A stretch of DNA of 64,000 nucleotides from Haliotis asinina (lineage: Eukaryota > Mollusca > Gastropoda > Lepetellida > Haliotidae), in NCBI RefSeq assembly GCF_037392515.1, contig NC_090282.1, positions 28,753,554 through 28,817,553 on the forward strand, written 5' to 3'. Within the stretch, counting starts at the first letter, position 1. Every line of letters starts with the position of its first letter. Shown here piece by piece: positions 6,661 to 64,000 of the stretch. The notes beneath the pieces are model-generated. The model made no database searches. It saw nothing but the letters and a program-made list of their open reading frames with translations, and had not been told where the DNA came from. Both the position numbers and the translations under genes were made by a program.

Positions 6661-9600
6661 CTACTGTTCTTCCTCATCCACTGACTCGCCTTTCTTCATC
6701 TTCTGGATGATCTGAAACATAAAACATCAGCTGTAAAACTCAAGAAGAAAACGGCAATATCAAATCACAGGGAAATGGTTGGGTTTTCTAGAAACATACT
6801 TTGTCTGAAAAATGGGTAAGGCACAAGTGGGCATCTTTCTTATACTTTCCATGCATGTTCATGTAAGTGTCCATTCTGTCTCTGGAGATTAGGGCAAAGT
6901 ACAAAACAATCCTTAGACCTTTCATGAATTAATTCCAAATTTAATGACATATTAACCAACTATGTTTCATAACTTGGCATCTCATGACATTGCCCTCAAA
7001 CAAAAATCATCAAAAGACATCATTCTAAGTTGTTTGGACTGGCAATATCATTTCTCCTTTGAGCCTTTAAACTTTACCGCATCAGAGTCTACTTCACTCT
7101 AGCACATTAAAACACTTACCCCCTTCAGTCTTAAAATCTCCTTATTGTCAGCATTTTTAGATGCGTCGTTGGTGATCAGTTTCACACGAGAAGCGTATCT
7201 ACAAACAAAAGATGTTTGTGTGAGAGTGGTCCAACACAACAGTCAGCAGTATTACAGACATATGTCTATAAGACAGGCCAGACAAATGAGTGGCTGATAG
7301 CAGGTTGAATGATCACTTTGATTACATGAAACGTCCTATAGCACGCACGCACAAGCTTTCATTAGAGAGATAACTGACATACATAAGAGAGATAATAGTC
7401 TTATAGCATTTTATTATGTAAGCATATTTTTCCAGTTACCTGATTGGTCAAGAGGCAGTCACGTGTCCGTCGGAAGAAAAGCATAGTGACATCATTCGTT
7501 TTTTCCATAAAAACATGTATTGACATCATCACCAGTCTAAAATTGCTTCATAGCACACTCAATGGCAGCTTATGTGAGAGACATCATACTGACTAACAGA
7601 ATGAGAGCTTACGTGAGGGAGATAACAGTCTCATCTGTGTTGTAGTCGGCAGGGGAGATGTTGACAAACATGAGCGTCTTCGCATTGCCTCCGAGGGAGT
7701 CTTGCATCAACATGGTCAGCTTGTTGTTCCTGTAGGGGATGAAGGACTGCTCACTGCTGAGTGCTGAGATGACGTCACCAAGGGCTGACAGCGACTTATT
7801 GATGGACATGGCTTCCTGTACACAGACAGTGAGTGCAAAACACAATTATATGTTATCAACCATTCTCCAGAAATAAATGGTTCAAACAAATAAACCAATG
7901 TTACCCAAGGGAATGATTGACAAAAACATTTTTCTCTCTATATATTTCATTATATTCTTGCAGGTACGTCTTATGCATGCATGCTTTGGTTAGCCATTTA
8001 TCCACTTTATTTCATTTTTCACACAGACAGATGACAGAAAACAAACTTTGAGTTCTTACATAAACTGTAATGGGACGCACTAAGGTTTAGATTAGACTGG
8101 TCACTGTTAAACTACCTTTCATGAACAGCACAGGATCTTTGAGCCAGTTCAAAGTGCCACTCACAATGAGATAACAGGTGTTTGAACTTGGGGATAAATA
8201 ACAGATTGGAAGTGTATATTACATTCACTATCATCGTCACAAGGATGTTTCACTTTTAAGGAAATATTGTTTTATTTATTAAACAGACATCCATACCTTC
8301 AGTTGCTCTGCCCCAGCTCCTGTTTTGCCCACTCTCTCACTGCCAGCCAAGTCAACCAGGCTAAGCTGCAACAAAGGTACAGGATGTGAATGAGGTGCAG
8401 ACGTGACAAAGTTTGATGTGACAAATGTATGCACTCTGTATACTTTCTTTGTTCATCATTTTCTGGCTATGTTGCACCTTGTACTTAAGCAGGTTCCTCT
8501 GATTTCTACACAAAAGTGTTTGTAGCCCATTTCATTTGACACACTATCCTCCTTGAGTCACATAAAGTAATGGATGCGGGGGATCATCACTGAGGAGTGA
8601 GTGAGTTTGGTTTTACATCGCACTCAGCAATATTCCAGCTATATAACAGCGGTTTGTAAACAATTAAGTCTGGACCAGACAATCCAGTGATCAACAGCAT
8701 GAGCATCTATCTGCACAATAGTCATCACTGAGGAATGTAGGAAAGATGAAATAAAAATATACCAGGGAACAGATTATATATTTGAAAGTATTGTTTCCAT
8801 GCAACAACAGGTTTCTGTGAATGTGAGTCTGTAAACTATCGGCTTCACCTTTCCCTTCAGCACCTGTCCAGTGACCTTGTTTGTACTTTCCATCACGATG
8901 CCAATAACAAGATGGGATCGGGAACTTTCAGCATTCATCTCTGAAACACAGTAAAGTAGTCATATACCCATTTTAAGGGATAACTATCAAGGTGCCAGCT
9001 GGCACACAAAACATTTATTCATGACGACTGGACAAGACAGAAGAAAAGACAAGACTGATGTACACAAGTAGCACTGATGACCCGCTTACAATATTCTCAA
9101 CTGATTGGCTCACTGTGTCACGTGTGATGCATGGGTATCACACTAATTAAAGGGACCATCTGTCTCACGTTTACATCTCACACCATACAACTCAGGAAAA
9201 TCTCAATGACACAGGAGTGAGATACACAGATTCTGTTGCCACCATATTGGAATAAACTATGTCATAAATGGATCAAGTCACTGATTAAGTGATAAACCTG
9301 CTCTATTCAAGTCCCGGAACTCAGAACTCACTTGTTGAAGCTACATGTCTGTTCTTTGAGCCCTCCTCGAACAAGGCGAACAGTTCCTTGGTGTTGGAGG
9401 CCTCCTTCACAACAGCCCCCTGGACAAACACCATGCCCTTCTTGTCCTTCTTGATGTCCAGTTTGTCCTGAATACAAATCAGATTTAGAGCTATTTCTGT
9501 TATCATTATATTAAAGTGTGTCAGCTTAATGAGAGAGTACACCACAAGGTGAAGCTGATCTTAGACATGTACCATTGTGGTGAAACCCACGAGGAGGAAT

Positions 9601-11301
9601 GTAGATGACAAATCTAGAATCATAATCAGTTGGAAACTGGGATTCACAAGGAACTGCACCATTTCTTTGCATATTAGGTGTATATATCCAAACATGCAAA
9701 CATAGTCATCTATATCACAAATCATAAGATGCTTGACACCAGTCATTCCCACTGTATAGTAGTATCACAACATCGACTAAATAAATAAATTTACAAAATA
9801 ACAGGGATATCGGGAAAATTTCTGGGGCAAATCTGTTGTTGTGCATAGAGTGTTTATTTTGTTTATCATTTTGAATATTGCAGGAGCAACAGGGAATCCT
9901 TCCCTGTTCATTATGAAAATATTGGCATATACATTTCTTAACTAGTTTCATATTCTCATAACTTTGGCATCATTGGCCTGTTTTCTTCTTTTTCTGTAAA
10001 CTTTTAGGCAAACAGCTCTTAAGAACACAAGCCTTAAAATATAGTTTCTATTACTGACTTACATCATCTAGCTGCCCTGGCTTTCCAAACAGATCGATGA
10101 GCTTGTCGTTGTACAGCTCCAACATATAGCAAGTCACTCTCACTGACATCTTAGACCTGTCACAAGCAGTGTTAACAGTTCATATAGTATATCAGTAACA
10201 ACAATGGCAAGACTGATATCAATGAAGACTTCTAGGGAAGGACACACAAAATGTATACAGTAACAGGGATTTGGGAAAGAAGAGAGAGAAGGCCTGTGAC
10301 CTCTAAGTACTTCTCCAATTGTATTTGAATCAAGAAACCAGTAAATGTTTAAGGATTATTTGCCTGTTTGATTTTGATCGCTGACAGCAGTAACCTAGTT
10401 TTGACCACTGTTATGTAAGTCCCTATAACCAACCTGTTTTCCTGTGCCAGTTCAAATATCCTGTTGAAAGCTCTAGGAGCAATGCCAGGGTGGTTTTGCT
10501 CCTTGTCTCCAATCATGGTGAATGTCTTACCAGAGCCGGTCTGACCGTAGGCAAAGATGCACACATTGTAGCCATCCACAGCCGACTGGATCAGGTTCTG
10601 TGATGACAAAACACATCCATTATTTTTTACAAATTTTAAGGTGTCTGTCATTTTCATCAAATTCAAACATTTTTTTTAGGATATTACAGACTGAGTGAAT
10701 ACAGAGATACTGTTTCATTTCATATAAAAAATTCAAACTATCCAAACTGACCCAGAGATGTGTTGGAGTTGTGCTGAGGATCTTGGTACTCACATTGGTG
10801 TCCTCAAAGATCTTTTCCTGTGTGCTGGATTCCATAAACACCTGGTCAAATTGGAACTCCTTGAGGCCACGCTGACTGGACACCTCGATAGAGTACTCAT
10901 CGCCTGACCTCAGCACAGAGTAGTTACCCTGGAGACATACACAGATATGAAACCTAGACTCTTTCAGTGCAGTGATGAGTCTTCTGCTTAGAGTTAAACA
11001 TAAAGAGAAGAATTCTTTAACTGTGAATGACTACATTATGCTCAGGGTGCGCTGCCCCCTCTCCCATGAAAATATTTTCCCTGTGGCATTTCCCCCTAAC
11101 TTTTGGACTTCATGACTTTGCACAACCCCCCCTTCTCTGAAATCCTGGATCCATCCCCGATGCTAAAGATCTTTGTATAAATTGTGACAGTGAAACAGGT
11201 ACCCTTTCTTTCTCCGAGGTACTAAGGGGTCGAGCACGGCAGTAGACACGGATCTTGCCCTTCATGTCCTCCACCATGTTGTAGTACTTCTTCCTCAGGA
11301 C
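6661..11301 (-). CDS. Kinesin module 4: neck and motor domain (10 exons)
   Basis: Exons in transcript order are 11203-11301, 10794-10928, 10434-10597, 10063-10156, 9332-9467, 8849-8940, 8297-8365, 7613-7815, 7120-7198 and 6661-6711. The neck is [20 protein letters not shown]. The P-loop GQTGSGKT (about residues 1442-1449) is in exon 10434-10597. Switch I, NAESSRSH, is in 8849-8940 and switch II, DLAGSE, is in 8297-8365. The microtubule-binding helix [11 protein letters not shown] and [19 protein letters not shown] are in 7613-7815. All ATPase motifs are intact. After [15 protein letters not shown] the chain runs only about 30 residues more, to GESVDEEEQ. Plant KCBP has a neck-mimic and then a calmodulin-binding helix there. 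The neck-mimic part ([16 protein letters not shown]) is recognisable, but I do not see a clear calmodulin-binding helix. Confidence 0.96.
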
Positions 11302-14300
11302 CTGCAGGTAACACAAACATTGGGGGGAAGTGAGTGAGGGAGCATGGTTCCTGGCAATATTCTAGCACCAGAAATGGGCATCACAAATGGTATACATGTG
11401 GGGAATCAAACCCAAGTCTTCAGAGTCATGAAAGGATGCTTTAATCACAAAGCTACCCCACTGCCCCCATTTGGGTAATATGAGTGAGTGATTGAGTAAA
11501 TGATGTGAACCTAGCACTGCTTTGAACAGTAGTACAATCTGAAGTTACGAAAGTCTTAGACATTTACCACTGTGGTTAAAGCCATGAGCAACTGGAAACA
11601 ATATAAAAAATACAATTTTGGTCATGATTATTCATTTATGGGCCACGCAACAACTTTGACATTACAAACAACTGACCCTTTCACTGTTGAAGTTCTCAGT
11701 AAGTGTTTTGTTTTCTTCTGTGAGTCTCTTGAAATCCTTCTCCATGTCCTTGACCTTAGTGGCAGCCTCAACACCTTCCTTAGCAGCAATTCCAAGAGCT
11801 GCCAGTTCATCCCGTAGTTTCTTCAACTCAGTTTCCTGCTTGTTGCATGTCTGACAGAATACAAAAAGATTTGGGAATGTATGTATTGGATTTATACCTT
11901 CAGCTGAACCATAACACATAAGAAATCTGACAGTGGTTTGTCACACCAACAAGAAGACAAAGTCTTCAGTAAACTCCACAATGGCAAAATACTCTTCATG
12001 GATATGTCTACTAGTTATGATTATGTCAAATGTTTTGGTGTGTATATAGCAAAGTGAAAGGAGAGCATTGAAAGGTTCTTAAGTTCTGCTTCAGAAAGGA
12101 GCACTACCACCAAATACAGTTGAAGCCAAACTTGGAACAAAAAATATTTTAATCAGAAATCCCAAACTACCCTAAGGCACCAGTACACCACCAGACTTAT
12201 CTATGTGCAAAGTTTGGTGAAGAAATAGTGAATGTTTTTCAAGTTCTGGTCCAGAAAAGAGCACAACTACCAAATTCAAAGTACTTGTTGCCATGGAAAC
12301 ACAGACAAAACATCACTGAGGATCATATTCCTTAACTCCATCTTCACACACGCGCGCACACACACACACACACATACAAATATTTCCATCACTGACTGGT
12401 TCAGTTAAGATGTTTAGAAATTTTGAAATTTGTAACTTATAATTTGAATTTGATAACATTGACAATGTTATATAGAATGTGAGCCTTTTGATATTTGGAT
12501 TTGTGTCCCTTCAACTTCGACATAACAAGTTATGATAGCTATAGTTAGTTAAAATCCTCATGGACGTATACATTACGACCAAAATTTTAACAGTGGTTTC
12601 TACACTTCTTCTATTATTAAAACATGTTATCATTAAAACAGTAACTAAACAGATAAGATAAACATGTATAGTCTTCCTGTGTCTTGCCCTGAAACCAAAT
12701 TTATCCTACTGACCTTGCCCAGTTCCTTGGTCTCTTCCTCTTTGTTTTTCAGACTTTCAGTCAACTTCTCAGTCCGACTCTTCTCCCATTCCAGCTTTTT
12801 CTCCAGTTCCTTGAGGATCTTCTCATGTCGCTTCATCAAGTTTTTCTGTTGGACAATGGAAATTGAAATTCCAAAAGATCAGTGAATAAAGACCAGATGT
12901 GTTTTGAAATGAAAACTATATAAGTAATACATTACAGTAAAGATGTATAGACACCTATACGCATCTTTATCTTTACGTAAAGAAAAAAATCTGGAAAGTG
13001 CAGAATGAGTGACATGAGTGCTAGTTACATAACATGATGCAGCACAGACAGTTCAGCAGTGACTTACATCAGCAGCAGAGTCTCCATCTGACTTGCCCTG
13101 CTTCTTGGCATCTACTTCCATCTGTTTGATGCGTGCATTGAGGGATGTGTTCTCTCGCTTCATCACAAGCAGCTGATCCTTCAGACCCTTGTCGGCTGGC
13201 GCTGCTCTACCCTGGTACACACACGACACATTAAAACAGGAGATCTCTGGTGGGTGGGGCCACCCTGGTATATACAGGGGATAGTCAAACAGGGTTCTCC
13301 CATGGGTGGGTCTACCCTGGTACACACAGGACACATTAAAACAAGAGATCTCTGGTGGGTTGGGCTACCCTGGTATATACAGGGGATGGTCAAACAGGGC
13401 ATGTCAGATGGACAGGGCTACCCGGATACATACAGGAGATAGTCAAACAGGGTTCTCCCATGGGTGTGTCTGCCCTGGTACATACAATAGACAGTCAAAC
13501 AAGGCATCTCTGCTGGGTGGGGCTACAGTGGTAAATATAGGGGATATTCAAGCAGGGGATCTCTGTTGGGTATGGCTACCCTGATACATACACAGGATAG
13601 TCAAGCAGGGGTTCTCTGTTGGGTGAGGCTACCCTAGTACATACATGGGATAGTCAAGCAGGGCATCTCTGTTGGTGAGGCTACCTTGGTACATACATGG
13701 GATAGTCAAATAGGGGATTTCTGGGGAGCGGGGTTACCCTGTTACATACAGTGGATAGTCAAACAGGGAATCTGTGGTAGGTGGCTACCCTGGTACATAC
13801 AGGAGATAGCCAAACAGGGGATCTCTGGGGAGTGGGTCTACCCTGGTACATACAGGGGATAGTCAAACAGGGGATCTGTGGGGAGTGGGGCTACCCTGGT
13901 ACATACAGGGGATAGTCATGAAGGGATCTCTGGGGAGTGGGGCTACCCTGGAATGTACAGGGGATTCTCAAACAAGGGATCTCTGGTGGGTGGGGCTATC
14001 TAGGTACACAATGGGGATAGTGAAACAAGGGATTTCTGGTGGGTGGGGCTACCCTGGAAAATACAGGTGATTGTGGGGATTTCTGGAGGATGGGATGACT
14101 CCGGTACTGATACAGACAGGGGATAGTTAAACATGGATCTCTGGTGGGTGGTGCTGCCTTGGTATGTATAGGGGATACTCAAACAGGGGACCTCTCCCCA
14201 ATCTGGTGGTTATAATAAATGAGACCTTGAAGCAGAGTGTTCAATATTAATTAGAATCTTGATATTTCTAATGAAAAATTAGATTTGCCAAATTGCAAAA

Positions 14301-17300
14301 CAAAAGTAGACTTATTTCAAAAGTAAATCTTCATATTGTACTGTTGATAATAATGTAGGTTTTTCAGACTGTATTGATATAGGAGAATGAGATATATCTG
14401 AGACGATCATTTGTGAAATTCCCCATACATGAGTTTGATCAAGACCTACCATGGATCATGATCAGGTTAATTATCATATGCAAACACATCGTGTGCTGAT
14501 CCTGTCAGAGTGTGTGATTGAGTTAGGTTTTACTCCAGTCCAATATTCCAGCAATACTACAGTCAGGGACAGCAGAAATGGGCTTCAAACATTGTACCCA
14601 TGTCAGGGATCAAATCCAGGTCTTTGATATAATGAGCTAAAATTTTAACCACAATGCTTATAACCCCCACTGCCCAACATTCTGGCACAACTAAGGTACA
14701 TAACTCAACATTACAAGTTACTGCACCTTTAACCTCTTTAGGACCTGAGATTGCATAACAGAGGTAGTAGTATTATGTTTATGACAGGAAAGGATTTTTT
14801 TCTTATTGAATAGCTGGTTTCACATTCACCTTTCAGAATGTGTTACAAAATACTACCATGCACCAAAAGTATATAATATAAAGAAACTGTAGGACAGGCA
14901 AAGAAAAAGACAGTGATGGTTAGGATATGTTGAATGTCTGTACTTACTCCTGCTGCCGGTGCGACTGCTCCCGCCTATAGTGAAACAGACCATTATGTGT
15001 GTTAGTGACCCATCCATTTACATATATATCACAATTACAGACACAAGTAAATTGACAATCACCAACTATAATCCCCTTGCAATACTTATAGTCCATTTCA
15101 GGTCAAATGAGGATGACAAATGATCACATAACTCAAAATTGGGGTAAGTGCACAAACATAGATAAGACTCATGGTCCTGAAACCTCTGTACCCAACAGGA
15201 TCTGAAATCTGACATTTTTTGATTGATGATGGAAAAAGGTGTTTAAGAAACCATCATGTACCATACCAGGGGATGACAAATAGCTGATAGAACAGTGCCT
15301 GAACAGCACTGATGTCGTCTCAGTGTTAAAATAGCACAATATTGCATGATTGTTCCCTAAACAAATTTTTCCATGATCAGTAGAAAAATAACAATTTCAA
15401 ATCCTGTCGGGTACAGAGGTTTCAGAACCATGGATTATATTTGTGTTTTATGCACTTATCCCTATTTCGAGATATTTAATCATTCATCATTCGTATTTGA
15501 ACCAAAACAGACTACATATTTCCTTAGTAGAGGGTGCAAACAATAAAGTCGTATATGATAGGATATCAATACTTATATGAGAAATATTACTCATGTCATG
15601 TATAATTTATATTGTCAACGTAAACATTGAGTTAAAGAACACATATTTCTGAAATGAATATTTACAAAATGCATCTGAGTAATCCTTCAGGCCGAACATT
15701 TAATAAACATAACTACATGTATCAAAACAAAAACTGGACAAATTTGTTTTCCACCGAACAAATCATCAACTAATTGTTTAATGTACGGTGCCTAGTTTTC
15801 CTATGTGCTTTGGCTGTGACATGCATACTTATCATCTTGATTTAAAGAATTATAATACTGGGTACACACAGTCTGTGATTCAGGTTTTGGGAACAACCAG
15901 TTCATTTGTGGGAAGGTGGGATTTTTCAGCACATAAATATTTTACATGTTACATTAGACAAAAAATAAATAAGTGCTCCTTTTTGTACAAAGTATAATAA
16001 CCTGTGTTCAAAGAACAGTTATTGTTATTTATCTATAAAATTCAATTGTGCAATTGTTTACACTGGAAAAATAACTGAGCTCCTAAGCAACTGGAAAAAG
16101 AAAAATGATAGAAAATGGTGATTTAAAACAAAATGTCCACCCCTCTGCACATAAATGAAATGGCTGCCTCGTTGAAATATGTGGCATGCAGATTCTGTGG
16201 TCATGGATATCAAATGCTTTATGAACATATTTCACAATGTGGACTGATTGCAAGGGGATATCATTAAACAACACCACCTCATGTAACAAGTACATAGACA
16301 TGAACGTAACTAACTACAGGATTGGCTAAATATGACGCATATGCAACAAGATTGTGTTATTGATCATTCATCAAAATCTATCAGCAAGAACAACAACACA
16401 GAAACCCCTATGTTACAAATATGTAGACTGTACTGCTAAGACATGAAACAAACTACCTGGATCCTCTCCAACAAAGCAATCCTAGAGCTAAGATGACATA
16501 ATGCCTATACTTAGGCTTACAACAGTCATAGCACTAATATTTTGTTCTCTACGAAGAAAATATATTCTAAAACATCTACAATGTTTACTGCACAAATGTT
16601 AAATGTTCATAAATCTACCTTGAGACACAACTAGGTACACATACAACTAAATACAAGCATGTCATTCTCCAGTGTCATGTGACATGCATTTTGCTGCATG
16701 ACCAGGCTAGGGTGACTGACATTCCAGTCTACTTGGTGTCAGCAAGCTAGAAAACAATGTACTAAACATCATGCTACTTTATGCTATTTGTGACTTGAGT
16801 AATTTTTCTACAAGAAAAACACTTACCAAGATTTTATCCAATTTTTTATAAATTTTTCTCTATAAAAACAAATTGGATATAGATCATATGTATTCACCAA
16901 TCAAGCATTATTTAAATTTCCAATGTGTTTTAAGCATCTGTGAACAATGTTCATATTTAAAAAAAACACATTGATTTTGAAACCTTTTTTTAGAAAATGG
17001 ATAAAGAGCATTTAAGCTCTAAGGTGCGATGATATTCCACTGGCAGTCTTTCATGGCTTCAGACAATGGATTTGTCCAAAGAATTAGGTGGAGCTAGTCT
17101 TAAAGGGGCACTGATGCGGAGCGAATAATGTTTCTCGCCAACGGTCGAATTACGAAACCAAACTGCAAATTGGTCAGCGCCCGCTCCTTCGACCGTGACG
17201 GACAAAGGAACTGGGCTCCTGTCCATATTAGCAGAATTTCTTCACCTAAACAGTCAGGAGGCCGGAAGCCATCATATGACATTTGTTTAAAAATATCCAT

Positions 17301-20300
17301 GGTATTCCTTGTCTGATCGTAACCAAATATCCCAGCAGTGTAGTTCTTATCGGATGCTTGGATGATATAGTTACTGATCCAATTTGATCCTATTTCTGTG
17401 TTTTTAACCTCGATATTTAATCATGTTACATGAAAATATGATGTCTACAGGCACGTAGCAAGCCATTTGTTTCAGTACGGAAGATTGCAAAGCTTTATAT
17501 ATATAGGTAGTTTTGAGTGTTGGTTCAGCTGTGATAGCAAATATCATACGTAAATTTTGGTAGCTACGGTAGCTACAATGGTTTATTATTTATGATAATA
17601 AAAACACACAGTTGATTTATTTGAATTCGTAAACAAAAAACGATGACTTTGCCTTTGGTAGAGAAATCTGAAAATTTTCGTATGTTAAAAAACCCTTATT
17701 TCACCTATTTACCCAAGTACACAGCAAATGCCTGTGTGTATTCCTTATGTAACGAAATTCCGTTGGTATCCTCAAAACAGTTTCGGCCCATAAGTGTTTT
17801 CAGGCTGCATGCGACACAGAGATTACATCTTCCTTGCTGTAACCCGCGTTTGATGGTGTAAACCTACACGTGTTATTTGTCATCATTCTCTGGATGGTCA
17901 ATTAATGAATTTATAACAGGTATAATTAGTAGTAACACCACTTCGGTTACACAACAAAGGTTCCCATTTGGCATTTCTCCTGTCTGGAGTGAATACTCAA
18001 CATTATAAATTAAGGTCTGTAATGGCAGATGTATTGTATGTTATGTAATATGTGCATGTAAGTGATGCAAGAGGGTTTATCAGCTGAGTTACAAAAAACA
18101 AACATCGATCAAAGGATTAACCGATAACACACTGATTGATTAATTACTTTTATCTTCTAGCGGATTTGTCAAAAGGCAGTGTGTGTAGATGACTACACCC
18201 TGTCGTAAAGGGTGAGTGCAAAAACAACATCGTCCCTTCAAAGAATTAACCACCCTTGCGTTGATTGATTGATTGCTCATTATTGGAAATTACTTAGAAT
18301 AGTGGACATCATACAGTTAGTTGCCAGGTGTGCTATCTTGGGAGACCAATGAGAGGTTTATCTGGTTTTCACCAACGAAACATGTGAAACGATGTGTTAC
18401 TTTTTCGCAAACTAGACAGTTGGAAGACACGCGACACAGAGCAGGATTATTTACCAGCTGCAGATGAATGGAATACGATTTCTTTTACGTGGATATTGAT
18501 GGATACATTCCTGAACAAGGTAGTAGCCTGACACTGTTGCTATACAATTAGTCTGTTTTACATTCATTATTTGCATTTTGTTTTAATTTATTTGTTGTAG
18601 CATTCAGCAGAATCTGTATGACAGAAAACACACACTAGATCGCGTATGTGTGTGAAATAGGATCCACATTGGCAATCTATGCAATGTATAAATGTTGCTG
18701 TTATGTTAGAAATTTACTATTAGTATAAGCAGATCGTGTGTTCTTTTATTAATTTTCAGAATCATACAAATATGACAATAAACTAATTAGGGTTATGAGA
18801 CAAAATATAGAGACGTACATTGGCTTCGTTATTTTTCCGTCCGAATAGTTTTTTACCATTTCTACCACTGGCAGATGATTAACCTTCAAAGTGTTTCATT
18901 TGTTTTCATAATACATTTGTTATGAAGTAAAAATGACTTCACCTAAGTTGATCTGTCTATAATTAAACTATCAATTGCGCTTACGGAATGCGCAGTAGAG
19001 GTCATGAACCAGTCATGAATTCTGGGATATCATCCGGGTACTCACGGGAGAAAAACAATAACAAAAGTTTACACCAGTCCACGGAAATTGCTCCGCATCA
19101 GTGCCCCTTTAATAAATGTATTCAGAGAGCGAAGAGCATGGCATGTCATGTGACTGCACGCCAAAATGCATGGGCTCAAGGGAAGGTACTCATGTGAGAG
19201 TAATGATTATACATCCGCTTAATGAAGGGAACTTCAAGGGATTTAAGTGTTCCACTACGTTCGGATAGAAGAAGGAGACAAGAATAATAAGTTAGGATAT
19301 GGAAAATCTTTTTGCTAGATTTGTAGTGCTGTATATGTGCGCTTCTTGTCTGCACTGCTATACATTGTCAATAGATTTGTAGTGCTGTATATGTGCGCTT
19401 CTTGTCTGCACTGCTATACATTGTCAATAGATTTGTAGTGCTGTATATGTGCGCTTCTTGTCTGCACTGCTATACATTGTCAATAGATTTGTAGTGCTGT
19501 ATATGTGCGCTTCTTGTCTGCACTGCTATACATTGTCAATAGATTTGTAGTGCTGTATATGTGCGCTTCTTGTCTGCACTGCTATACATTGTCAATAGAT
19601 TTGTAGTGCTGTATATGTGCGCTTCTTGTCTGCACTGCTATACATTGTCAATAGATTTGTAGTGCTGTATATGTGCGCTTCTTGTCTGCACTGCTATACA
19701 TTGTCAATAGATTTGTAGTGCTGTATATGTGCGCTTCTTGTCTGCACTGCTATACATTGTCAATAGATTTGTAGTGCTGTATATGTGCGCTTCTTGTCTG
19801 CACTGCTATACATTGTCAATAGATTTGCTTATGTTGTTTGATCAGCATTCCCCAGAAGTTTGGGGCTCAATTAGGAAGCATACAACCTTATGGATAACAG
19901 CTTGTCTTTTTAATAAAGTAACATTTTGGTATTAATTCTGTTACTATTAGCTTGATCACAGCGTAAGAATCTACACTGAAATGTCACACTCTGCAGACAA
20001 CAAGAAGTTGAAATCCATAAAATCACATCCTTCATTTTTGGCATCCATTATAAAAGATGATACATAATGCTTAAAATAAGTCATAGATGACCTAAGTCTG
20101 TATATTACTTGAGACAGTCTGTCATGCCATGACAAATTAACTATAACAACTTGAAAAAATAGCCCTTCTGAGTAGTATACAACAGCTGTAAACACAAGTC
20201 AACTGACATCAATCACTTGGAGCAGATTGCTTCTGGTATGTACTGAAGTGCCTGATAATTTCCCTTCATTCGTGGTATACCATTTTCTCCATCAAGTATA

Positions 20301-23300
20301 CTAGGATTCAGAATACACCTGTCAAAAAAGTTATGTCCAAGCATAAAGAAGGGAGTACTCACTGGTTTGGCTGGAACCTGGGCCTGCAGCTGTTTCACCT
20401 AAAACAAAAACATGTATAGTGCTTATATTCAATGGCAAAAAAAAGTTAATAATGAAGGTCTGCCCTTTGCTGAGTTGTGTAGTTTTAGTTTCTTGTCAAT
20501 GTTAATTTTTGTTATCTTGTCTTTTGGATGCCAAACACAAAAGCAGTTCTGTTTCTTGGCGATTGAAATATACTGAGCCTTGATGATTGATTAGTCTCCC
20601 TTACCTTGCTCTCCAGTGTTGATCTCTGCAGTTCCTTCTTTTCCAGCTGATTGGTCAGTTCCCGGACAGCTTGTTCCTTCTCTGTCCTTGCAGCCTTCAC
20701 CTTACTCTGTGATGCAATTATATACAACAGCATAGTATAAACAAAAATCTGGAACTGGTAACCAATCTCTGTACATGTGACTAAAGGTGGACTAGGCTGG
20801 TGCTACCTGAAGTCCTAGCCTTAATACGACCATTCAAAAAGTACTTGTCTGTAACTCCAGATTGAAGAGATAACTTAAGCTGACAATAAATGATTCTCCA
20901 AATGACATTAAGTATAATGTCTCAACTTCAAATGACAAAACTTACAGTATGGGGCTTTTCTATATTTACAATGAATCACTTCACTGAGGTGTTTTCTTCA
21001 GTATGTTGCCTCATCTGCACTAGTCTGCAAGTCCAGTCAAATCCTGTTCAATCTATTAAGCTTAGTTAGTAGTCGTCAGTACACAGGCAAACTGTAGCGC
21101 AAATGGGGTTGTGCAGCATAGAGAGTATGACAAGTCTCCTTATATGCGAGCGAAGCTAGCAAAGGTTGGCAATGTACTTCCATCACTTCGGATCAAAAAT
21201 AATTTTTCATATCAACATAAAATATCGCCACCATCAAAGGTACATTCCCACTTCCTCACTTGGTTGTGTTCTCATATTTCCTACCTCATGTTTAATAATT
21301 ACTGACATGAAATATGTTTTATTCAACATTTCAAACACCACTTGTGGTATTCAGATCGTTCTTTGCTTCCATTACCCCTGTCAGCTTCCGGTTGAACGGA
21401 GTGACCGAACAAGAATAAGCAAAAATTAAAAAGAAATACCATATTGCCTATTTTTATCATGAACCTGTTGGAGTTTATTTGACTTATATGTCGTTGCTAT
21501 TGTTAGAATTTTCATAACATTTATTCTACATAAAAACACTTCTGCTGTAGTGGGTGAATGAAGCAGGGGAGATAACGGTAAGTATTCCATATGGAATTTC
21601 TTCACTCCTTTGAACTAGAAGCTGGCAAGGGTAATGGAGGTGAAGAACGGTCCGATATACCACGAGTTGCGCTTAAAATGCTGAATAAAAAATATTTAAT
21701 GTCAGTAATTGTTCAACATGGGGTTGGAAATTTGAGAGAACAACCAAGTGTGAAGAAATGGGTGTATACCTTTGATGGTGGAAAATATTTTTTATTTGGG
21801 CATGAAAAAAATTCTTCAAACCTAAGCAAGGAATGTATGTTGCCAACCTTTGCTCGCCTCGCTCACATGTAAGAAGACTGGTCATTTTCTCCATGCTGCG
21901 CAACTCACTTGCACTACAGTTTGCCTGTATTCAGTATTACAACACTGAAATCTACCATTCTGAGTGAATGAGTAAATGACATGCAGCAAATACCCAGACA
22001 CAAAAGTTTCCCCTGGACCAACAAAACACAGCTGGAATACATCATCTAAATTGGAAGGATAGTTCGATGTCATAGAGTCATTCAAACTAAATCATGCAGA
22101 CAGGAAATGAACTGTTACAGGTGGAGTACCTCAAGGTCCCTGTTGGTAGCCCTCTGTGTCTCCAAGTTTTTATTGGAGAGTTTCAGTTTGTTCTGTGCCT
22201 CTGTCAGCTGTGCCTCGAGACCAGCCACCACCGCCCCTGAACCAGTTTTGTCCTTCTCCAGCAGAGACTGAAGACAAATAACAGTCCATTATAGTGAGTG
22301 TGACAGTGAGTGTGAATGTTAGAGTATGTGTGAGTGTCATGTGAGTCTGCAAGTGAGTGTGATTGTGTGAGTGAATGTGTGTGTTCCATGTGTGTCTGCA
22401 AGTGAGTGTGATTGTGTGAGTGAATTTTTGTGATGATGTACACCGACTGTGATGTTCCAGTTTTTTGGCAGCAGCCTGTAGAAGACCTGAATCTGGACAA
22501 GACAATCGAATGGTTGATATTGTGAACAGCAATCCATGGCTGAGGATGCTGACTTCGACTTTAACCATGGACAACTCATCAGTGACAGTGAAGATTTATT
22601 TAAAGGGAGTGTTATATCAGAAGTGGCAATCCCAGGCAAGTTGGATTCAGGCCATTCAAAACCATTTACACTCCTTATAGGTGTAGAATAAAGTGGAAGT
22701 CATCAGAGATTAACAAACACTGGTCTCTGATGTATACTAGTGAATACTTGACAAGAGAAAAAAATCACACTAAGCATTGAACCACTTCATCTAGTCATTC
22801 ATTCACACTATACTATGAAGAACCTGACTACACATATAGTTAATCTAGGGTCCTCACAATTTTATTCTGAAGATTTTTCATTTCCTTTGCAGTGTCCACT
22901 GGCACATTAGCCAATCTCTCAGCCTCCAGTTCCTCAGTTCTTTGTTTTGCATTGGCCAGTTCCTGAAACAAAACACATAATCAGGGTTTCTAGAGCCCTC
23001 ATACAAACTCTCCACAAGTTATGAGTTCTATTTCATATAGCTGTAGATTTCTACCCCTGCCTCTATGTAAACAGGGATATTTCATTACTTGCTATGACAT
23101 AACATTTATACATATAATGGTTGTAGTCATTAATGTAATTTTGTAGAATGAAATGTCATTGGCAGAATACTGTTATAGAGATCTACACAACGGAAAGAGA
23201 AAGAGCTGACCTTGCAATTGACTAGTATGAGAACTTAGTGTTAAAAACACTTATCTTACCTCACACATGAATGTCGCTCTCTGATTGGCTAAGCACTATT

Positions 23301-63606: not shown

Positions 63607-64000
63607 GTATGGATGAGTAGGTTCTCCCATTCTGGGAGTCGCAGTGATGGTTGTCCCAGTCCTTCAATGAGAACTGGAAACCATTCTCTCCCTGGCCAGT
63701 AGGCGTGACGAAAGTCAGTTGCAGCATCATCATCATCAATTTATGTTACCGATGACCTTTGGTAGTACAAATGGTGTGCAGATGGACGAGTAGGTTCTTC
63801 CATTCTGGAAGTCTCAGTGATGGTTGTCCTTGTTCCTCGATGAGTACTGGAAAACATTCTCTCCCTGGCCAGTAGGCGTGACGAAAGTCAGTTGCAGCAT
63901 CATCATCATCAATTTATGTTACCGATGACCTTTGGTAGTACAAATGGTGTGCAGATGGACGAGAAGGTGCTCCCATTCTGGGAGTCGCAGTGATGGTTGT
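63607..64000. repeat. About 173-bp tandem duplication inside the DIRS fossil
   Basis: The block with ttccattctgg, gcagtgatggttgtcc, ccctggccagtaggcgtgac and gcatcatcatcatcaattta occurs twice in full and starts a third time at the window end. Confidence 0.88.

Follow-up and report, generated by a model that had tools for sequence, protein, structure and literature searches.

A kinesin exon in a mollusc genome is preceded, on the minus strand, by a tandem array whose units repeat the acceptor of that exon. The locus raises two questions: how did a 3′ splice site come to be copied along an intron, and which of the copies would the spliceosome use? The original prediction, that a minisatellite had multiplied the splice site, is supported by the sequence; the outermost unit of the array holds the modelled acceptor, AG 13213-13212. 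We favour, with a probability of about 0.62, the reading that this is a mirage-type array that arose by duplication over the intron/exon border, with the outermost acceptor mainly used and the decoys mostly silent. Coordinates are those of the window, the whole stretch of 64,000 nucleotides that was analysed.

The kinesin gene and the exon beside the array

Judged by sequence similarity, the gene is a KCBP-like kinesin-14. The best match of its motor exons was KCBP (PDB 3h4s, E=2e-38), the first of 154 matched sequences; the same exons contain the Pfam domains Kinesin and Microtub_bd, and the exons upstream of the motor, judged by eye on the model, are coiled-coil- or rod-like. We record as an observation in its own right that a KCBP-like kinesin-14 gene lies at 7120-33646, minus strand, in a mollusc genome. 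KCBP is best known from plants; a calmodulin-binding C-terminal helix is typical of it, and the plant members have MyTH4-FERM.

Dynamic programming on the minus strand gave a gene model of 62 exons, of which 30 were retained by hand as confident. The weak exons dropped by hand were 14744-14727, six between 20232 and 16457, 11591-11568 and 8498-8478, the last two being among the downstream exons joined in the decoy-frame test described below. Exon 14744-14727, which the model offered next to the array, is 18 nt long and in phase 0, with a coding score of -0.2. The exons around the array are as follows.

20363..20398, minus strand: preceding confident exon, phase 0 (gene model; six weak exons before 14974 dropped)
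14948..14974, minus strand: upstream exon AGAVAPAAG, 27 nt, phase 0 (gene model)
13068..13211, minus strand: kinesin exon of 48 codons, phase 0 at both ends, ending DSAAD (gene model)
7120..11301, minus strand: C-terminal kinesin-14 motor exons (KCBP-like), downstream of the array (PDB 3h4s, Pfam and gene model)

Exons 20398-20363, 14974-14948 and 13211-13068, all in phase 0, join the rod to the motor via an Ala/Pro linker. The exon border at 13211 is presumed, on the strength of the reading frame and of an acceptor matrix built from the small set of 29 other acceptors of the gene. Alternative starts within the exon were rejected, as the in-frame exonic AGs down to 13151 have lower matrix scores (-3.94 to 0.63, versus 2.49 for 13211). 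A search for a second gene copy or paralogue with which to compare exon borders found none: the five matches to a 222-residue query (E 0.01) were this gene's own exons.

A 53-bp array across a modelled exon border

TRF called a repeat at 13207-14195 with a unit of 53 bp, 18.8 copies, 73% matches and a score of 895, and register alignment laid out 19 registers of the unit along 14202-13203 of the minus strand, with a mean column identity of 76% across the array. In the motif list the registers are spaced 51-53 bp apart, apart from a single 105-bp step that hid the register with exon-start coordinate 14106; this register was recovered from the alignment and the matrix scan.

13203..14202, minus strand: candidate mirage-type minisatellite, 53-bp unit, 19 registers (TRF and register alignment)
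13203..13255, minus strand: outermost unit; its AG, 13213-13212, is presumed to be the true acceptor (registers, alignment and matrix)
13308..13360, minus strand: nearest sister unit, decoy acceptor 13316, 92% identical to the outermost unit
13256..14149, minus strand: stretch with the 13 AG-keeping registers of the 18 upstream (registers, alignment and matrix)
14106, 14053, 13947, 13895, 13842, 13789 and 13738, minus strand: decoy exon starts
13633, 13580, 13474, 13369, 13316 and 13264, minus strand: further decoy exon starts

About 17 further units, each carrying TACCAG/GGTAG, had been predicted. The number was close, with 18 further registers, 13 of which have the AG in place (12 by motif and the 13th, 14106, by alignment and matrix scan); the claim that each carries the motif did not hold, the exact sequence being present in five of the 18 in the motif list. 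The outermost unit contains the first 5-6 bases of the modelled exon 13211-13068. The GGTAG(A) next to the AG is common to the exon and to nine of the 13 AG-keeping decoys, and past it the exon diverges.

The array is more than chance. When ungapped copies (at least 72% identity, within 1.5 kb of the splice site) were sought for 30 acceptors and 30 donors belonging to the kinesin gene, acceptor 13211 alone had nearby copies (n=5), with none of the other 29 acceptors and none of the 30 donors flanked by such an array. A 30-mer from the unit, allowing up to three mismatches, matched nine times in the 1.14-Gb genome, all nine inside this array, and control matches for the 30-mer numbered zero; as the pattern recovers nine of the 19 registers within the array itself, it could overlook degenerate copies in other places. 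The whole 989-base array matched a single place in the one assembly. A dispersed element was accordingly set aside, as array and 30-mer match here only, in searches that can both miss degenerate copies.

How the array came to lie at the exon edge can be read in more than one way. We consider it possible, though doubtful, that the array came first, as an unrelated intronic minisatellite that reached the exon edge and had its last AG adopted as the border. The unit shares only those 5-6 bases with the exon, the score of the modelled acceptor is middling to weak (2.49, ranking 21st among 30) and units 13211 and 13316 stand apart as a subtype (92% identity in the pairwise unit comparison), all of which would suit such an origin; the unit identities, however, show no clear age order along the array. 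Units 13895, 13842 and 13789 are mutually 0.89-0.91 alike, and the best matches of the five distal units are 0.75-0.81. In mirages, concerted evolution acts inside the cluster and excludes the boundary units; the proximal boundary unit here is 0.92 identical to 13316. Purging of decoy AGs is not seen (17 and 15 of 19 in the AG columns, against a column mean of 15.9). We prefer a tandem duplication of a 53-bp stretch across the intron/exon border, which would have spread the 3′ splice site over the 18 further registers. Growth of the array was most likely by ordinary unequal exchange or slippage, without dedicated function.

Present-day length polymorphism is less likely in a degenerate array than in a pure one, and since the column identity of the 53-bp array is 76%, it is less likely here than in a pure array. 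A better candidate for such polymorphism is a perfect array one intron upstream in this gene (19316-19827, 56 bp x 9.1, 100% matches), which has nine full identical copies and whose unit, with up to three mismatches allowed, matches nowhere else in the genome. Further repeats were recorded in the window. A CA/TC-rich 49-bp x 2.9 array at 22294-22432 lies upstream of kinesin acceptor 22267 and stops 27 bp short of it; the array contains two acceptor-like cacttgcag/AC copies and does not include the real border at 22267. The intron of the 53-bp array also contains a dispersed repeat.

14515..14680 (limits approximate), minus strand: SINE-like dispersed repeat, upstream of the array (27-mer core)

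The 27-mer core of this repeat (14601-14575, one base free) has 948 + 976 = 1924 copies in the genome. At the window edge, a 173-bp satellite-like repeat (63609-64000, 2.3 copies, 92% matches) runs off the sequence.

Elsewhere in the genome there are 16 matches to the haemocyanin beta-sandwich family (PF14830) at G000:C2 96255865-96318095, in two neighbouring groups of eight, and six egg-lysin (PF01303) matches in one region, G000:C14 26671878-26918244, two of them with internal stops. Neither family had a match in 14 control genomes. The haemocyanin beta-sandwich family marks molluscs, whose haemocyanin genes follow an eight-unit rule, with two groups of eight expected of a gene pair; egg-lysin marks abalone and their relatives. 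The egg-lysin matches may represent a small cluster in which some copies are broken, or may run into introns. Taken together, the two families point to a vetigastropod host, probably an abalone.

Known relatives of the array

Arrays that repeat splice sites have precedents. The original paper on the lancelet Adh3 mirage is reportedly that of Canestro et al. from 2002, and Turri et al. are said to have described, in 1995, a human interferon-induced transcript in which a minisatellite gives multiple splice donor sites. The gene of that transcript is IFI6, or 6-16; its minisatellite, like the array here, supplies repeated splice sites and, unlike it, does so on the donor side.

The closest likeness is to the lancelet ‘mirages’. 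In the passages on them, these are tandem repeats spanning exon borders in globin (BflGb6/BflGb9), Adh3, troponin C and PGBD5 genes; they lie at both exon borders, keep the AG or GT in many, but not all, repeats, and are described as regularly spliced without apparent interference (PMC3087553, PMC3902484). As in those passages, the duplication at the kinesin locus is minisatellite-like and runs over an intron/exon border so as to take in the intron's 3′ end (as in BflGb6), and its copies are imperfect (as in PGBD5). Its repeats span the modelled border and 13 of the 18 upstream registers keep the AG, and by these two structural features the array fits the mirage type, as far as sequence can tell. 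The kinesin array differs in its mollusc host, 53-bp unit, 19 registers, 5-6 exonic bases and possible hairpin masking. In the same passages the lancelet globin and Adh3 arrays come with transcript data and known length instability, whereas the kinesin array is known from the sequence of one assembly.

In the human ABCA7 gene, according to the passages on its intron-18 VNTR, the 25-bp units begin with the exon's own splice site, and about 2% of transcripts keep one unit in the tissues that were compared, a share that is unchanged with array length (PMC5954066). The likeness lies in tandem units that carry an exon's splice site, with a site one unit away used at about 2% in ABCA7. Unlike the kinesin array, the VNTR is on the donor (5′) side, is highly length-variable in people and has a length that tracks exon 19 skipping; here it is the acceptor that is repeated, and none of the 30 donors searched has nearby copies. 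In human segmental duplications, internal tandem repeats at exon-intron boundaries can, according to passages of PMC2812944, alter splicing or form novel introns. Those repeats are likewise minisatellite units at exon borders, but half lie within coding exons, and they were shown via comparison of paralogues and transcripts. The passages on prawn lectins, dog MCHR2, chicken MUC2 and human VNTR surveys offered no acceptor-side precedent, and among the literature matches listed there was no mollusc case of a splice-site-copying array.

Decoy acceptors, their predicted masking and the proposed explanation

By matrix score, 11 of the 13 decoys lie above the modelled acceptor, the exceptions being 13316 (1.92) and 14106 (2.29). 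The modelled acceptor ranks 19th of the 116 AGs between 14900 and 13069, and the 18 above it comprise the 11 decoys, one other AG in the array and six outside it; among intronic AGs outside the array, 181 of 1215 reach its score. Under the scanning model of AG selection (Smith et al. 1993, cited from passages of PMC10655562), decoys behind a branch point should compete; ten of the 13 decoys have a YTNAY branch-point-like motif 12-45 nt upstream. The consequence of such use can be read from the frame. Spliced from exon 14974-14948, 12 of the decoys reach a stop 19-71 codons past that exon's start. Three are in frame (13316, 13895 and 13580), with stops within 13895 and 13580, which leaves 13316 as the only stop-free decoy, and the prediction that it would add exactly 35 codons in frame was correct.

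13212..13316, minus strand: 35-codon open extension (105 nt) if 13316 were used (registers and frame translation)

Structure offers a way in which these sites might be kept from use. In the unit consensus the predicted hairpin joins CTATCCCCTG to CAGGGTAG, with arms lying at about -20 to -11 and -3 to +5 around the AG. Folding of 31-nt windows gave energies from -10.7 to -3.9 kcal/mol for the 13 decoys, -0.7 for the real site and -6.2 to 0.0 kcal/mol for the set of 30 modelled acceptors; since 11 of these 30 match or exceed the weakest decoy in hairpin strength (-3.9 or lower), local hairpins do not exclude use. In a 120-nt fold, the predicted open probability is at most 0.0023 in 12 of the 13 decoys and 0.49 in 14106; acceptor 10156 of the same gene has 0.0002. 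Mann-Whitney values for these comparisons are inflated, as the decoys share one descent. Across seven settings the median open probability of the decoy AG/G was 0.00003-0.00012 in all seven, versus 0.025-0.096 for the 29 other acceptors; the decoy maximum was 0.15-0.92. With short-range settings (n=4) the real site is predicted to be open at 0.37, 0.19, 0.05 and 0.43, and 0, 1, 1 and 1 decoys reach it. In the three long folds it is predicted to be paired (0.0001, <0.0001 and 0.0041), ranking 30, 29 and 27 of 30 acceptors, with 3, 5 and 1 decoys reaching or exceeding it; we infer that a partner 60-100 nt upstream pairs with it there.

Such folds suggest self-masking, in which the hairpin of each unit (CTATCCCCTG...CAGGGTAG) would bury its own copied acceptor and the true acceptor would be the AG-bearing copy with the weakest local hairpin. 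This is the one new idea to come from the analysis, a hypothesis with modest support from the predicted folds; in its full form we think it improbable. The sister unit 13316, with a single base of the upstream arm different from the true-acceptor unit, is predicted to be masked. Pair counts for the unit hairpin gave no sign of covariation in excess of shuffles (80.9% versus 80.5% paired), RNAalifold predicted no pair on the unit alignment, and fold z-scores were mostly unremarkable (two of 19 windows below -1.8). Hairpins of -6.8 or stronger occur in 7% of 200 random intronic AGs, so a single ancestral hairpin is not improbable. The masking idea is weakened by a preprint, PMC11870503, the passages of which report a trend, with no clear difference, towards canonical 3′ sites being more accessible than cryptic ones, and no difference at the guanine.

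The scores and the folds bear in opposite directions on the proposal that splicing leaks, the weakened splicing of the original prediction. Several decoys would then be used, giving a ladder of mostly stop-containing mRNAs that would be decayed, and the array would tune kinesin dosage down. The high decoy scores and the branch-point-like motifs favour this account, as does ABCA7, both in its low-level unit retention and in the exon 19 skipping that follows VNTR length. We nevertheless regard a leak as unlikely: 12 of the 13 decoys are predicted to be masked in the 120-nt fold, the lancelet mirages are reported as splicing-neutral in the passages cited above, and ABCA7 unit retention does not change with VNTR length. 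A regulated or frequent isoform from 13316, with the rod-motor linker lengthened by 35 residues, is very improbable, for although the extension is open throughout and would, from frame translation of the joined exons, fall in the Ala/Pro linker, one stop-free decoy among three in frame out of 13 is allowed by chance, 13316 scores below the real site (1.92 versus 2.49) and has a predicted open probability of 0.0000 in the 120-nt fold, and the added peptide is aromatic- and Pro-rich, unlike the rod.

We return to the preferred reading, a mirage-type array with a mainly used outermost acceptor. After duplication across the border, the spliceosome would mainly use the outermost copy, 13211, since splicing there leaves the coiled-coil-to-motor frame intact and inserts nothing extra, and since most decoys would be sequestered in the predicted within-unit hairpin. 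Occasional use of a decoy would give mostly stop-containing mRNA, and rare use of 13316 a protein with 35 extra residues in the Ala/Pro-rich linker. At the RNA level the array is probably silent for the most part; to judge from the lancelet precedent, its consequences for splicing would be small.

The finding places a splice-site-copying minisatellite in a mollusc gene, beyond the lancelets in which the ‘mirages’ of the cited papers were named. Self-masking, if true, would account for the ability of mirage arrays to multiply splice sites while splicing stays undisturbed. The locus also presents 13 similar acceptors within one intron, a natural series to be told apart from the true one. If only 13211 is used, the series would test which features other than the AG and its context (structure, branch point or exon definition) determine the choice of a 3′ splice site; should decoys be used, the length of the array could tune kinesin dosage.
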